From Bacteroidia bacterium (GTDB taxonomy: Bacteria; Bacteroidota; Bacteroidia; UKL13-3), in contig JAGVLJ010000062.1 in NCBI GenBank assembly GCA_020049855.1, forward strand, positions 1 through 34,178: a stretch of 34,178 nucleotides of DNA, given 5' to 3'. How positions within the stretch are numbered: position 1 is the first letter of the stretch; the number at the start of each line of letters is the position of its first letter. Positions 23,196-29,708 of the stretch are shown piece by piece. The notes under the pieces were generated by a model, which worked only from the letters and a program-made list of their open reading frames with translations, was not told the DNA's origin and did not search any database. The position numbers were made by a program, and so were the translations under genes.

Positions 23196-23203
23196 TAAAC
23201 TTG
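23196..23203 (+). promoter_or_regulatory. Weak -7-like element before the ECF sigma gene
   Basis: TAAACTTG differs by one base from TAnnTTTG, 45 bases before the ATG at 23249. No TTG is at the -33 distance. If the operon is autoregulated by its own ECF factor, the true promoter may look different. Confidence 0.25.
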
Positions 23204-23248
23204 CAACCTTCTTTATATAGTAAACGTCACGTAGTATAAGAACACAAA

Positions 23249-23788
23249 ATGATAGAGCAGCAGGATGAAAAAGATCTGGTTCTGGGATGTATTAGGGGAG
23301 ACAAGCGATACCAGAAAATGCTTTATGACTTATATGGAAAGAAAATGTACGGAGTTTGCCTAAGATATTGCCAGAATAAAGACGTAGCCAAAGATGTGAT
23401 GCAGGATGCTTTTGTAAAAATTCTCACCAATATCGGGCAGTTTAAATTCACAGGGCCATTGGAGGCCTGGATGAGACGCATTATGGTAAACACCTCCATT
23501 CAGTTTTATCGTAATAGTATCAGCTTAAAAGAGGTAGAACTTAGTGAAGCACATGGCGAGATATGGTATGACGACACTTTTTCAAAATTATCGAAAGATG
23601 AGATTTTGAAACTTATTCAAAACCTGGCTCCGGGATATCGTACTGTATTTAACTTGTATGTAATTGAAGGGTACTCACATGCCGAAATTGGCGAAATGAT
23701 GGGGATAAATGAAAACACTTCCAAGTCGCAACTTTTCAGGGCTAGAGTGATTTTACAAGAAGAGATTAAAAAGATGTATTTAAAATAG
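23249..23788 (+). CDS. ECF-type RNA polymerase sigma factor
   Basis: The 179-residue protein has only sigma regions 2 and 4. Region 2 (about 25-90) reads LYDLYGKKMYGVCLRYCQN, then KDVMQDAFVKILTNIGQFKF and WMRRIMVNTSIQFYR. Region 4 (about 120-173) reads LAPGYRTVFNLYVIEGYSH, then AEIGEMMGINENTSKSQLF, the DNA-binding helix-turn-helix. This is the SigW/RpoE-like ECF architecture. It is followed after 4 bases by a membrane protein with an anti-sigma-like N-terminus, and then by a giant surface protein, an arrangement that suggests an envelope-sensing switch controlling surface-protein expression. Confidence 0.95.
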   Translation: MIEQQDEKDLVLGCIRGDKRYQKMLYDLYGKKMYGVCLRYCQNKDVAKDVMQDAFVKILTNIGQFKFTGPLEAWMRRIMVNTSIQFYRNSISLKEVELSEAHGEIWYDDTFSKLSKDEILKLIQNLAPGYRTVFNLYVIEGYSHAEIGEMMGINENTSKSQLFRARVILQEEIKKMYLK

Positions 23789-23792
23789 TATC

Positions 23793-25106
23793 TTGAAAAA
23801 TAAGAATAACATAGAGCAATTTGATGAGTTCTTTAAAGAGAACATGAAGGGGTTGGAGCCAGAGTTGCCTGCGGAGCTATGGTCAGCTATTGATAACGCG
23901 TATCACACAGGTCAGTCAGCTACAGGCAATATTGCGGTGGCTGTTTCCAAAACTATCGCTTCCGTAATCATTAGGGCAGCAGCAGTTATTGTTCCTACAG
24001 TTGTTATTGGCTATTATCTGGTTGCCTATATACAAAATGATTCAATATCAACAAAAGAGCAAAATCAAATTTTGGTTGCCGAACCAACTAACCAAATTGA
24101 CAATGTACCATCTATGGTGAAGCAGTCAATTACTGAAACACCCAAACAACAGGAAACAACCTCGGTTCAGGTGCAAAAATCAACTAAACCCAAAATAATT
24201 CTCGGCTATTCACAAAATCAAAAGAGTGTAAAACCTTTTGAAAGGGAGCCAAATCCAATTGCAGGTTTAAATGCAAAAGAAGGAACAGCCTTAAAGCAGC
24301 CAACAGAATTGGGTAACAATAGCTCGAAAGCAATGGCTTTGGCAACGGTGAATTTCGATATCGAGCAGCAGGAAATATGTTATGGAGATATTATTAAACT
24401 TACCAATACTGCTTCAGGTTATTTTGCTTCCTTTCATTGGGATTTTGATGATGGACATACACTTGATCAGGTAGCCAAAGAACAGATTACATATCGCTTC
24501 GATCGACCAGGTGTATATAATATCACTTTGGTAGGAATTACCATTGATGGACAAAAAATGAACATCGCCCGTAAAATTAAAGTGGCCATTAGTCAGGCTT
24601 ATTTTGTTATTGATAAATCAGCCTATCCCGAAATAAAATTCAGCAATCAGTCAAAAAATGCTGCAACATATGTTTGGGATTTTGGAGATAATTCTCCTTT
24701 AAGTACTGTAAAAAATCCAATCCATCGGTTTAATGTGGTTGATAAAGCGACCGTGATGCTCATTGCACAGAATGGAACGTGTACCGATACTTTCAGGATG
24801 GATGTTTCATTGGCCCAGACTGATGCTAAAGAGCAAATTTTCATTCCCAACGTTATTACTCCTGATTGGGACGGGATAAATGATGTATGGCAGGTGAAGG
24901 CTTCTAACATTACTTCATATCGCCTTATCATTATGGATAAAACCGGAAAAGTAATTAAAGAAAGCACAGATAATACCGAAGGATGGCGGGGCATTTATGC
25001 GGATGGGAGACCTTGTGCTCCAGGCGATTATTATTATGTATTAACCATGAGCATGAATGGGAAGCCTGAATTTACAAAAACAGGAAGCATTAAATTGATT
25101 CAATAA
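23793..25106 (+). CDS. Single-pass membrane protein: anti-sigma-like N-terminus, PKD-like domains and CHU_C domain
   Basis: The 437-residue protein starts with TTG, 4 bases after the sigma stop. Residues 1-45 are hydrophilic and include NIEQFDEFFKENMKGLEPEL and PAELWSAIDNAY, which resemble the short cytoplasmic N-termini of Bacteroidota proteins encoded next to ECF sigma factors (P-x-x-x-W). Residues about 54-80 form one membrane helix. A Lys/Gln/Thr-rich linker leads to two PKD-like domains (about 187-267 with SFHWDFDDGH, and 268-340 with YVWDFGDNSP), and the last 90 residues are a CHU_C domain: IFIPNVITPDWDGINDVW (349-366), YRLIIMDKTGKVI and GDYYYVLTMSMNGK, ending GSIKLIQ. This is not a standard secreted T9SS cargo, because there is no cleavable signal peptide. 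It is plausibly a membrane-anchored regulator of the adjacent sigma factor. Confidence 0.85.
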   Translation: MKNKNNIEQFDEFFKENMKGLEPELPAELWSAIDNAYHTGQSATGNIAVAVSKTIASVIIRAAAVIVPTVVIGYYLVAYIQNDSISTKEQNQILVAEPTNQIDNVPSMVKQSITETPKQQETTSVQVQKSTKPKIILGYSQNQKSVKPFEREPNPIAGLNAKEGTALKQPTELGNNSSKAMALATVNFDIEQQEICYGDIIKLTNTASGYFASFHWDFDDGHTLDQVAKEQITYRFDRPGVYNITLVGITIDGQKMNIARKIKVAISQAYFVIDKSAYPEIKFSNQSKNAATYVWDFGDNSPLSTVKNPIHRFNVVDKATVMLIAQNGTCTDTFRMDVSLAQTDAKEQIFIPNVITPDWDGINDVWQVKASNITSYRLIIMDKTGKVIKESTDNTEGWRGIYADGRPCAPGDYYYVLTMSMNGKPEFTKTGSIKLIQ

Positions 25107-25109
25107 AAT

Positions 25110-28100
25110 ATGCAGAATTTGAAAATGACAAATAAAAATACTATGTTAGCACAGTTAATTTACCTCAAAAATGTAGTAAGAAACCGTTCCGGAGGACTGG
25201 TTTTTACTGACGAAAAAGAAGATAACCAGAAAAAAATGAAAAGAATGCGATTTAAGTTTCTTTTGTGGATGGCTCTATTTTTAGGGCTTTCATTAGGCTT
25301 TAAAACCTATGCCCAGCCTAAAGTTGTAGCGGCTTTAACAGGGAACAAAGGCTGTGTTTACCAAACGGTTTCGCTTACAGTACTAAATTCACCCAGCAAT
25401 GCAACCGGATTTACTTGGAATTTTGGTCATCCGCCTCCGGGAAACACCGCTCCCTCATTAACCCCTTCAACCCAACATTTCTATGGAACAGCCGGGGCAT
25501 TTGTGGTTACCGTAACCATTACAACACCAAGTGGACCAGTATTCGCACAAAGTGATTCAATCTACATTAACAATTTGCCTAGAACTGCGTTTGTTAGTAC
25601 AAATGGTAATAAATTTTGTAGCCCGGCTACCGTTTGCTTTAAGGATAACACGCTACCGGCCATACCGCTACCTGGTCAGCCAATTGCACCCATTGTAAAG
25701 GAAATATTTCTATTTGGAGATGGTGAAATTACCAATAGCCTGCATGTGCCTCCGGCCAGCCGTGACTTTTGCTACACCTATCCATCGCCCGATTATAATG
25801 TGTACACTCAAACTATTCGCGTTACGGATATTAATGGCTGTATGGACACCTTAAGAAGACCTAATTATATTTATGTGGTGGGAGATTTGGGGGTTAATTT
25901 TTCAGTTAGTGCTCCAATAGGGTGTGCCAAAAATCCGGTTGTTTTTTGTACCGATGCAACTTTTACTAATAAAACCAGAGCGGAGGTTGTATACCCCGAT
26001 TCGGTAAGAAGTTTTAGGTGGGATTTTGGTGATGGTGCTTTTGACACGTCAAATTGGTACACAGTTACGCATACCTATTGTACTAACGGAAGTTTTTCTC
26101 CACGGTTAATTGTAACTGATATTAATGGCTGTTCAGATACCTTTTTACTAAGTAATGGGGTAAGAAACACTTCCTTCCAGTTTGATGTTGATGCAATTGA
26201 TAATCCTGTATGTGCCAATCCCGGTAAAATTTGTTGGAAGCAAACAAATGTGGTAGGAGCCAGTAAATTATGGACGTTCTTTATAAACCCTAATCCTCCT
26301 TTTGATACTGCAACCAAAACATATACTTACGGGCCTTGGAAACCCCTTTCTCCTGACCCTAAAATTTTTACAGAGGACGGAACTTTTACCCCTTGTAGAA
26401 CTATACCATGCGGTATGGCCAGGGCAAGCTTAAAAATTCGGGCTCCGGGATGTTTTGATACCACTTGGGTTTGGGATACCGTTGAGGTGCTGGGGCCGGA
26501 CGCATTAATTGAAACTCCTGGAGGGCCTGCTATTGCAGATAGCGAGCGTTACCAGTGTAAAATAGTTAATCCTGTTAACTTTACCAACCTTTCCTGTCAT
26601 TATAAAGCGTTTAATGTAGTGCGGCTTTGGGATTTTGGAGATAGATATGCCAGGCAATGTACTACTGATACTCGTAATGGAATTAATGTATTTGGTGCCG
26701 ATACTTTAACCTTGCTTGATCCGGTAAAATATCCGGCTTCCTCAAGCAGGCCATGTAACTGTAACTTTTCAAGGGATTCTTTACCGGTGCATATTTATAC
26801 TGATTGGGACACTCTGGCATTGCGTTCAGTTGCAGGATCTACCTTTATACAACCAACTTCACCTCCTTACAGTACAAAAAATTTCCCATGTTACACCGTT
26901 AAGCTTATGCTTTATGATTCAGTAAACAAATGCGGAGATACGGATCAAGTTCAGTTACCCCTTGGGCCTCCAAAGGCTGGGCCAAATGGTTCGGAGTTAG
27001 TACCCGGAGGTCATACTCGTGTTGTACTTAATAATGTCGGATATTCAGATCCAACTACTTTGAAAAAATCAGGAATTGAGTGTTTTGGGCCTGCTCCTAA
27101 CGGAATTATATTCGATTTGAGTAAAACAGTACCTTCATGTACCCGTGCTTGGGTATGCATAAACTACGATTCTGCGGCCGGTATTCAATCGAATAAGTGG
27201 GTGTGTCAACCTGGTCTCTTTACTCAACTAAATAATCAGGGGCCTTGGGTACCTCCACCCGCCCCCAGAGCTTGGCCTAACAGAATAGCAAAAAATTATT
27301 CTGATCCTCCGGGAATTGCCGATACCAATGGCTTTGTAACAATTGGATTGCTTGTAGGCAATGGCTGGACTGATTCAAAAGGAAATCCACATTGGTGTTA
27401 TGATACTGCATACTACCATCGGTTCTTAAGGTTTACACCATTTACTCCGGTTTGGGATATTATGGATTCGGCCAACGGATTTCCTAAAGTGCATGATTGT
27501 ATTCCAATGCGTTTAAGAGGATCTATTCGTAAGAATTACCAAGATAGCCTTTTGGCCATCATATGGGATTGGCAGGATGGAAGTGTAACTATTGATAGTA
27601 TTCTTAGAGAAGGTTTTGTAAAACCCAATAAGGACACAGTAAAAAGTTATACTCGCACTAGGTATTTTACCAATAAGCTAGGTACTATTGACAGCACTGA
27701 GAACTACTCTTTTATTCCTGACACTGTTGTGGGTGAGGATACCCTTGTACATTACTATCTCAAGGCCGGAAGATATTATCCAAGTGTTACCATGGTTAAT
27801 ACCGCTGGTTGTGTTCAGTATAGTTTCCGTGAAGTAGTTGCCGGCTTTTATAATGAAGTGGCTATTGATGATACAATCGTTTGCGTAGGGGATACTGTTA
27901 ATTTTAGAGATAGTGCTTATTATTGGATATATCCTGAACCAATTTTCCCACCTCAAAGAATTTACTATGTTGGTCGCGATCCATTCCTTGGCGGATATCG
28001 TACACAGGCTCCTTTACCTCCTTATCAATTTGAAACATTAAAATGGAGGATTTTGAAGCGTGACAGCACAACAGGGCAGTACACATTAATTGATCAGCGC

Positions 28101-29708
28101 AATGGTGCTAGGTTCGGATATTCGTTCAATAGTGTCGGACTTTACTCAGTAGAGTTGATTGTAACAGATAGTTTGGGTTGTCAGGATACCGCCAGAAAAT
28201 GGTTGACCGTGGTAGGAGTTAAGGCTGGTATTTTTATTCCAAAGCCGGTGTTCTCCTGTAATGATACCGTGCGCCTGTATGATAGGTCTATTGTAATCGA
28301 TCCTTATTACCAGATGTTTGGTATACGAGCCGATAGTATTAAACAAATAAATCAAAACGGGTATTACTGGGAGTTTGGAGATGGCAAAACGCCTAGCGTA
28401 CTCATTAATCCCGTGCACGATTACACAAGCAGCGATACCTTTATTGTTTACCATAAGGTAAGAATTTATAGCGGATGTGAAGCGGATGTGTATGATACAG
28501 TCGTCATTGATGGCCCGCGGTCTAAATTTAAATTTGTTGGAGACTCCATAGGATGTGTGCCTTTTCCCGTTACATTCGACAATCAATCAAACGAGGTAGT
28601 CAACAAGTCTAATTCATTTATCTGGTATTTTGGAGATCCAAACGATGTGTTTAATTCATATTCAACAGATGGAGATACCAATATTACCAAAATTTATACA
28701 AATCCGGGTACATTTTGCATAACATTATTGGCGAAAGACAAACCGGGCTCGCAACCTAACTTTTGTCCTATAAGGATATTCCCTGATACAAATTCTCCTC
28801 TGGCTCAAAAAATATGTATAAAGGTTTTGCCTGTTGATACTGTTAACATCACGGTTGATACAGCGTTGGTTTGTTTGGGAGATACAATACGCATTGATAA
28901 CAGTAAGTCAGGAACCAAATTTACTACCTTTGATTGGTATTGGGGCGATGGCATCAATGAACAAACTGGTCCTGTTTCTGGCAAAACCCATATTTATGCC
29001 GATACTGGAGTATATACCGTGCGCGTAAAAGGTAATTATACACCGCCTCCAGGCGAACGAGAATGTAAATTGGATGATAGTTTGGTAGTGGCGATAAAAA
29101 GTGTAAAGGCAATCTTTGAAGCCGACACCCTATCATCGTCTGCCACTGCGCTGAAGCTACCCCTAATCAGGTTTGTGAATAAATCCGAAAACGGAGTATT
29201 GTTCGATTGGTATTTTGGTCACCCTGATGTAAATAGTTTAGGCGGTTGCGATAACGCCTTGCCGGATGATCAGAAGAAATATAACAATATCGGCAAAACA
29301 TTAACTGATGAAATCAGGCACTGCTATGGCAACGATACTGGTTGGTTTAAGGTTTGTTTGATTGCTTATTCTCCGTATGGTTGCGTGGATAGTACGTGCA
29401 TCATGGTTCACAATAACTTCGATACCTTGTTTAGATGGTATAATGTATTTACTCCGGGTAATGGGGACAATAAAAATGATGTATTTAACTTCCCTATTAA
29501 GGGTCAGGAGATATATGAATTAACCATTTACAACAGATGGGGCGAGATTGTATTTGAGAGCAACGACCCTGATTACGACTGGAATGGTAAGGTGAAAAAT
29601 TCGGGTGCCGATTGTCCTGCCGGAGTATATTATTGGATACTACGCTACAAGTTTAGAGGACGTGGAGATGGCGTAATGAAAAATACCGTTACCCTAATAA
29701 GGGAATAA
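25110..29708 (+). CDS. Giant PKD-repeat surface protein with T9SS type B (CHU_C) C-terminal domain
   Basis: The 1532-residue protein has a signal peptide at about 43-69 (MKRMRFKFLLWMALFLGLSL up to TYAQ), so export and processing after the Gln are likely. The 42 residues before it are hydrophilic; an alternative start is the ATG at 25236. The body contains many PKD-like units recognisable by W-x-F-G-D cores: FRWDFGDGAF, RLWDFGDRYA, YYWEFGDGKT, FIWYFGDPND, FDWYWGDGIN and others, with recurring VTDINGC/VTDSLGC strands and many cysteines that could form disulfides. Residues about 1437-1532 are a CHU_C domain: WYNVFTPGNGDNKNDVFNF, then LTIYNRWGEIVFES, ending KNTVTLIRE. It is probably a T9SS-secreted adhesin or surface filament. 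It is the last gene of the sigma operon and ends at a strong terminator. Confidence 0.92.
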   Translation: MQNLKMTNKNTMLAQLIYLKNVVRNRSGGLVFTDEKEDNQKKMKRMRFKFLLWMALFLGLSLGFKTYAQPKVVAALTGNKGCVYQTVSLTVLNSPSNATGFTWNFGHPPPGNTAPSLTPSTQHFYGTAGAFVVTVTITTPSGPVFAQSDSIYINNLPRTAFVSTNGNKFCSPATVCFKDNTLPAIPLPGQPIAPIVKEIFLFGDGEITNSLHVPPASRDFCYTYPSPDYNVYTQTIRVTDINGCMDTLRRPNYIYVVGDLGVNFSVSAPIGCAKNPVVFCTDATFTNKTRAEVVYPDSVRSFRWDFGDGAFDTSNWYTVTHTYCTNGSFSPRLIVTDINGCSDTFLLSNGVRNTSFQFDVDAIDNPVCANPGKICWKQTNVVGASKLWTFFINPNPPFDTATKTYTYGPWKPLSPDPKIFTEDGTFTPCRTIPCGMARASLKIRAPGCFDTTWVWDTVEVLGPDALIETPGGPAIADSERYQCKIVNPVNFTNLSCHYKAFNVVRLWDFGDRYARQCTTDTRNGINVFGADTLTLLDPVKYPASSSRPCNCNFSRDSLPVHIYTDWDTLALRSVAGSTFIQPTSPPYSTKNFPCYTVKLMLYDSVNKCGDTDQVQLPLGPPKAGPNGSELVPGGHTRVVLNNVGYSDPTTLKKSGIECFGPAPNGIIFDLSKTVPSCTRAWVCINYDSAAGIQSNKWVCQPGLFTQLNNQGPWVPPPAPRAWPNRIAKNYSDPPGIADTNGFVTIGLLVGNGWTDSKGNPHWCYDTAYYHRFLRFTPFTPVWDIMDSANGFPKVHDCIPMRLRGSIRKNYQDSLLAIIWDWQDGSVTIDSILREGFVKPNKDTVKSYTRTRYFTNKLGTIDSTENYSFIPDTVVGEDTLVHYYLKAGRYYPSVTMVNTAGCVQYSFREVVAGFYNEVAIDDTIVCVGDTVNFRDSAYYWIYPEPIFPPQRIYYVGRDPFLGGYRTQAPLPPYQFETLKWRILKRDSTTGQYTLIDQRNGARFGYSFNSVGLYSVELIVTDSLGCQDTARKWLTVVGVKAGIFIPKPVFSCNDTVRLYDRSIVIDPYYQMFGIRADSIKQINQNGYYWEFGDGKTPSVLINPVHDYTSSDTFIVYHKVRIYSGCEADVYDTVVIDGPRSKFKFVGDSIGCVPFPVTFDNQSNEVVNKSNSFIWYFGDPNDVFNSYSTDGDTNITKIYTNPGTFCITLLAKDKPGSQPNFCPIRIFPDTNSPLAQKICIKVLPVDTVNITVDTALVCLGDTIRIDNSKSGTKFTTFDWYWGDGINEQTGPVSGKTHIYADTGVYTVRVKGNYTPPPGERECKLDDSLVVAIKSVKAIFEADTLSSSATALKLPLIRFVNKSENGVLFDWYFGHPDVNSLGGCDNALPDDQKKYNNIGKTLTDEIRHCYGNDTGWFKVCLIAYSPYGCVDSTCIMVHNNFDTLFRWYNVFTPGNGDNKNDVFNFPIKGQEIYELTIYNRWGEIVFESNDPDYDWNGKVKNSGADCPAGVYYWILRYKFRGRGDGVMKNTVTLIRE

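Follow-up and report, generated by a model that had tools for sequence, protein, structure and literature searches.

An ECF sigma factor operon encoding an anti-sigma-like membrane protein with a T9SS-type domain and a giant T9SS cargo

Introduction

To our knowledge, it is an open question how Bacteroidota adjust their output of very large surface adhesins to the capacity of the T9SS. The locus described here is a compact, widespread and testable candidate for such matching. It lies in the window (the whole stretch of DNA that was analysed, 34,178 nucleotides of contig JAGVLJ010000062.1 from a Bacteroidia bacterium), and a sequence-only reading had described it as an ECF sigma factor gene, a gene for a one-helix membrane protein and a gene for a giant PKD/CHU_C cargo. 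Domain searches and coordinates agree with this layout (Table 1). The membrane protein and the cargo were also said to have outer-domain types in common, and Pfam finds both PKD and CHU_C domains in each. The sequence-only reading proposed that the CHU_C domain of the membrane protein might compete with cargo at the T9SS or sense it there, with stalled or successful secretion governing release of the sigma factor.

Table 1. Coordinates of the operon and its features within the window
Feature	Position	Strand	Details
ECF-type promoter-like site TTGCAACC-N16-CGTCA	23201..23229	+	starts 47-48 bases ahead of the sigma ATG
ECF sigma factor gene	23249..23788	+	179 aa; Sigma70_r2 and Sigma70_r4_2
Anti-sigma-like membrane protein with CHU_C end (middle gene)	23793..25106	+	TTG start, 437 aa
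Predicted cytoplasmic anti-sigma-like helices, residues 8-42	23814..23918	+	motif F..F...E..LP..LW..I; N-terminal HMM match E 2e-5
Membrane helix, residues 48-82	23934..24038	+	AlphaFold2 and hydropathy
Disordered tether, residues 83-180	24039..24332	+	pLDDT <40 throughout
Two PKD domains	24348..24812	+	PKD_4, two stretches; pLDDT ~90
CHU_C / type B CTD-like domain without RWG	24840..25103	+	Pfam and NCBIfam
DKTG replacing cargo NRWG, residues 382-385	24936..24947	+	alignment
Giant PKD/CHU_C T9SS cargo	25110..29708	+	1532 aa; signal peptide at about residues 44-69
Intact NRWG motif in cargo CTD	29532..29543	+	alignment

Results

Gene organisation and the T9SS cargo

The gap between the sigma factor and the middle gene is 4 bp, and that between the middle gene and the giant gene 3 bp. 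The sigma factor is 72-90% identical to its counterparts in two congeners, and the TTG start assigned to the middle gene is matched by the starts of its orthologues, in which LKNKNN aligns with MENKNN. The giant protein contains five PKD_4 stretches and a CHU_C domain at residues 1443-1514 that scores above the Pfam cut-off; against TIGR04131 it reaches 32.2 bits, slightly below the 35-bit cut-off. It carries the features of a T9SS type B cargo, namely a signal peptide (judged by eye), CHU_C and RWG. The signal peptide begins about 43 residues into the open reading frame, and the pre-sequence ahead of it (window 25110-25240, about 43 residues, MLAQ..K..V..RSGG) is conserved in the congeners. 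The genome encodes SprA (2401 aa) and three clear PorP/SprF proteins, and CHU_C occurs at 23 places in it; a T9SS for type B cargos is therefore very likely present. No PorP/SprF gene lies within the operon itself. Current annotation makes no distinction between regulator and cargo CTDs, and both go under the name of T9SS type B sorting domain proteins.

The middle protein resembles Dma anti-sigma factors

In the AlphaFold2 model of the middle protein two N-terminal helices (residues 4-19 and 27-42) are followed by a membrane helix at about residues 48-82, a disordered stretch at about 83-180 and then Ig-like domains and CHU_C, modelled with a pLDDT of about 90. The CHU_C domain spans residues 350-434 (Pfam, E 1e-14) and scores 48.5 bits against TIGR04131 (cut-off 35), making it a T9SS type B sorting domain in NCBIfam. 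A Sec signal peptide is absent from the middle protein, in which the hydrophobic helix begins near residue 48, behind the anti-sigma-like region; in all CHU_C-type members this helix is preceded by 34-79 residues. The N-terminus probably faces inside, a topology on which the positive-inside charge counts are neutral.

The sequence-only reading had called the N-terminus anti-sigma-like, and this likeness proved to be homology. We used an HMM of the N-terminal region trained on 58 proteins without CHU_C, each encoded behind a related sigma gene. With a limit of E <=0.1 and duplicate locus copies counted, 55 of 58 CHU_C-type rows among 1520 ORFs are found by this model, which recognises the middle protein of the window in the same set at the E-value given in Table 1. 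Anti-sigma-like proteins also make up the other matches below 0.1 that lie outside the training loci. When 57 of the training proteins were scanned, 27 matched OMP_b-brl_2, 15 OMP_b-brl and five the NCBI anti-sigma model. The N-terminus is thus homologous to anti-sigma-like proteins, many of which have outer-membrane barrel ends. The case for a sigma/anti-sigma pairing is strong, and residues 1-47 of the middle protein would be expected to bind the sigma factor. In some anti-sigma-like proteins (Niabella and others) two to five tandem copies of the motif PPAxxWxxI precede the membrane helix (L080 8577-9533, L084 8548-9486, L085 8548-9387, L086 8546-9415 and L146 7778-9799); in L080 they recur about every 32 residues. 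A single protein of this kind may carry more than one sigma-binding unit.

Dma anti-sigma factors consist of a helical anti-sigma domain, a membrane helix, a long disordered tether and a C-terminal barrel, and they pair with ECF21 sigma factors (PMC13088901). The middle protein likewise has an N-terminal anti-sigma domain, a single membrane helix, a long disordered tether and an adjacent ECF sigma factor, a likeness drawn from the published layout and from homology to the barrel-bearing relatives found here. The sequence-only reading had not named this close published relative. However, it ends in PKD and CHU_C domains where Dma proteins have an outer-membrane barrel, and the present operon additionally encodes a giant T9SS cargo. 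By its N-terminal homology and its arrangement of helix and tether it is therefore a Dma-like protein in which a T9SS-type domain takes the place of the barrel. As it has no barrel we do not class it as a Dma protein; it plausibly works like one.

The trio is conserved within and beyond the family

Co-occurrence of the ECF sigma factor, the membrane CHU_C protein and the CHU_C cargo had been offered as a check on the locus, and the trio is indeed conserved in the family and outside it. Our search of 64 family genomes found it in six more, the congeners G046 and G047 and four genomes of genus g3 (G020, G021, G022 and G024). The cargo of G047 (85% identical) runs off the contig end, and the G023 contig breaks off within the middle gene. 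In the family's other genera the same position is taken by a shorter form of about 290-320 residues without PKD, made up of the anti-sigma-like motif, a membrane helix, a linker and CHU_C; the CHU_C cargo behind it has about 1860-2430 residues. AlphaFold2 gives one such relative the N-terminal helices, the membrane helix, a disordered stretch of 124 residues and a folded CHU_C domain. When 395 genomes of the class were scanned with a profile of the short form, at least 11 other families proved to have full-length relatives, and in further families there are long forms beside cargos of 1550-2050 residues. An ECF sigma factor adjoins the middle protein in the same direction in 20/20 loci from other families, these loci having been picked by the middle protein.

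Of 46 distinct CHU_C-type loci, 33 have a gene for a CHU_C protein next in line and 13 do not; among 60 non-CHU_C loci there is no such case. Seven CHU_C-type and two non-CHU_C loci were set aside for contig ends. Fisher's test gives p 3e-17; because it ignores genome kinship, and because some of the control lineages may have few CHU_C genes at all, we read this as a strong contrast and not as a probability. Loci of the CHU_C type cluster strongly on the sigma factor tree, with 7 changes against 39 in shuffles. The CTD tree forces at least three label changes and shows 11 as drawn, its 83 columns being too few for the question of a single gain.

In short-form loci a second giant CHU_C gene often stands opposite the sigma factor on its far side. 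Most of the family, the two congeners included, have such a gene facing the sigma factor (about 920-1565 aa; L040 4491-7526, L039 6260-9310, L078 3265-7962 and many more). The 545-base gap upstream of the sigma gene in the window holds no second giant CHU_C gene.

A conserved promoter-like site precedes the sigma gene

Ahead of the sigma gene lies a conserved ECF-type promoter-like site, TGCAACC-N16-xRTCW, at the same distance from the gene in both congeners. The pattern TGCAAC-N15-18-xRTCW is found upstream of 35 of 53 CHU_C-type sigma genes, against 0.2 expected, and of 23 of 64 other sigma genes; it occurs upstream of 0/53 anti-sigma genes. In its strict form, TTGCAACCT..VRTCW, it occurs once in the genome. 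The distribution fits an autoregulated operon in which the cargo would be read from the same promoter. A search for the regulon in the organism's own genome with a looser pattern came out near chance (12 sites, with 9 in the reversed control) and was set aside. A related strict-pattern site stands 33 bp before another giant CHU_C gene of the genome; it is not recovered in the congener G047, and we therefore keep it only as a hint. Promoter-like sites of the same type were noted at L236 2359-2420, L238 3490 and L247 1501. They stand before another giant CHU_C gene (33 bp) and ahead of glyA, where the site is conserved in G047.

The regulator CHU_C domain has lost RWG

RWG is present in none of the 53 anti-sigma-like CHU_C domains, in contrast to 56 of 59 other CHU_C proteins, and it is intact in 33/33 direct downstream cargo partners. 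Its loss is a sequence signature by which the CTDs of regulators can be told from those of cargos. Neither this signature nor the promoter-like site was part of the sequence-only reading. The anti-sigma-like domains keep PNVFTPNGDG.ND, W.G, G.Y and the ..LIR end, and TIGR04131 is matched by all 15 short forms tested. The T9SS extended translocon complex supplied the top Foldseek match of a short form, to one of its chains, but at E 0.011 the hit was set aside as too weak. For SprB, each of five conserved CTD motifs is reported to be needed for secretion or shuttle recognition (PMC12618676), and RWG may be one of these five. The anti-sigma CTD is 38% identical to the CTD of its own cargo and 36% to those of other cargos, so that cargo-specific mimicry through CTD similarity is unsupported. 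In the same study, CTDs that share one shuttle have identities of 44% and more; those usual in the present loci, 30-45%, fall mostly under this level. With RWG missing and the CTD hardly closer to its own cargo, the domain is unlikely to be a plain mimic of the cargo signal, and the loss of RWG together with the low CTD identity favours a non-exported dock over a copy of the cargo's signal.

The same observations could be read without a dock. The PKD and CHU_C ectodomain might be a periplasmic sensor of cargo or of misfolded surface proteins, acting through Ig-like contacts and touching neither the T9SS nor the outer membrane; CHU_C would then have been borrowed from the cargo as a stable fold, and a periplasmic backlog would free or hold the sigma factor. 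The loss of RWG in 53/53, the lack of special likeness to the partner cargo's CTD and the short forms that do without PKD all suit this explanation. We nevertheless consider it unlikely, for two reasons. No fewer than 116 residues separate the membrane helix from CHU_C in 53/53 members, a long spacing also seen in barrel-bearing Dma proteins and suggestive of a reach across the periplasm, and it is CHU_C rather than some other fold that has been retained beside CHU_C cargos.

Alternatively the CTD of the middle protein may be a working T9SS signal, so that the translocon pulls on the tether, or exports a cleaved ectodomain, and releases the sigma factor, with the cargo competing. We regard this as improbable. 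The domain retains its fold and every other CTD motif, and the TIGR04131 matches of the short forms (15/15) point the same way, but RWG, found in 56/59 other CHU_C proteins, is seen in 0/53 of these, and the five SprB motifs are each reported as required for secretion (PMC12618676). Finally, that the middle protein is a plain secreted and cleaved surface protein that chances to follow a sigma gene, as its T9SS-type domain might suggest, is very improbable indeed and was rejected, since it has no N-terminal signal peptide (34-79 residues lie ahead of the hydrophobic helix in all members), has anti-sigma-like homology by the N-terminal HMM and adjoins a sigma gene in 20/20 other-family loci.

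Discussion

We favour, with moderate confidence, the interpretation that the middle protein is a Dma-like anti-sigma factor whose RWG-less CHU_C domain docks near the T9SS without being exported, within an autoregulated cargo operon. The giant T9SS surface protein would be driven by the ECF sigma factor, with the membrane anti-sigma factor of the latter encoded between the two. The cytoplasmic helix pair would bind the sigma factor, and beyond the one membrane helix the disordered tether would span the periplasm. CHU_C would most likely dock, unexported, on an outer-membrane T9SS partner, either a PorP/SprF-type barrel or the translocon region. PorP/SprF barrels are the likeliest partners, as type B CTDs have been shown bound to them (PMC9143113, PMC12618676). 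The state of the dock, for example its occupancy by cargo, would be relayed along the tether so that the sigma factor is held or freed, and free sigma factor would transcribe the operon from its own promoter, allowing cargo supply to track secretion capacity. CHU_C would bind and sense a partner at the dock, and cargo occupancy would alter the signal. Either a vacant or a blocked dock may free the sigma factor; the sequence fits both directions.

More tentatively, and with some doubt on our part, a non-exported copy of a T9SS signal domain may read the occupancy of the shuttle or translocon and couple it to transcription of the giant cargo, as a secretion-capacity sensor. If true, the locus would represent a trans-envelope class of anti-sigma factor and a sensor of T9SS secretion capacity. 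The locus also extends the Dma anti-sigma factors, known from vesicle and glycan regulation, to T9SS biology.

The sequence-only reading knew of no established description of such a design, and the open-access literature we searched contains none, nor any description of CHU_C-bearing anti-sigma factors. The closest idea among the precedents is PorA, by a different route. In Porphyromonas gingivalis the CTD protein PorA feeds into PorXY-SigP (PMC7712824), and as in the present operon a CTD-bearing protein is placed upstream of an ECF sigma factor and T9SS gene expression. SigP is activated by PorX, and PorA homologues are reported in Porphyromonas only (PMC7712824). In contrast to the middle protein, PorA is a small surface protein that acts via a two-component system.

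RsgI has domain types in common with the secreted system under its control. In Clostridium thermocellum it is likewise a membrane anti-sigma factor whose outer part senses the outside, but the system is Gram-positive, carbohydrate-sensing and of the sigma-I family, with no T9SS (PMC12203970). The T9SS type B cargos SprB and PG1035 (PMC12618676, PMC9143113) have the CHU_C/TIGR04131 domain in common with the middle protein; they differ in having a Sec signal peptide and RWG, whereas the middle protein has neither.

The same genome has a second sigma/anti-sigma-like pair (L170 1958-4150 and 5146-10428), in which the anti-sigma-like protein has 547 aa and no CHU_C; only one gene stands between this pair and another giant CHU_C gene (1760 aa). 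In one family the CHU_C-type anti-sigma gene is followed by a divergent second ECF sigma gene with an anti-sigma-like gene of its own (L208 8542-9123, L209 7293-7883).
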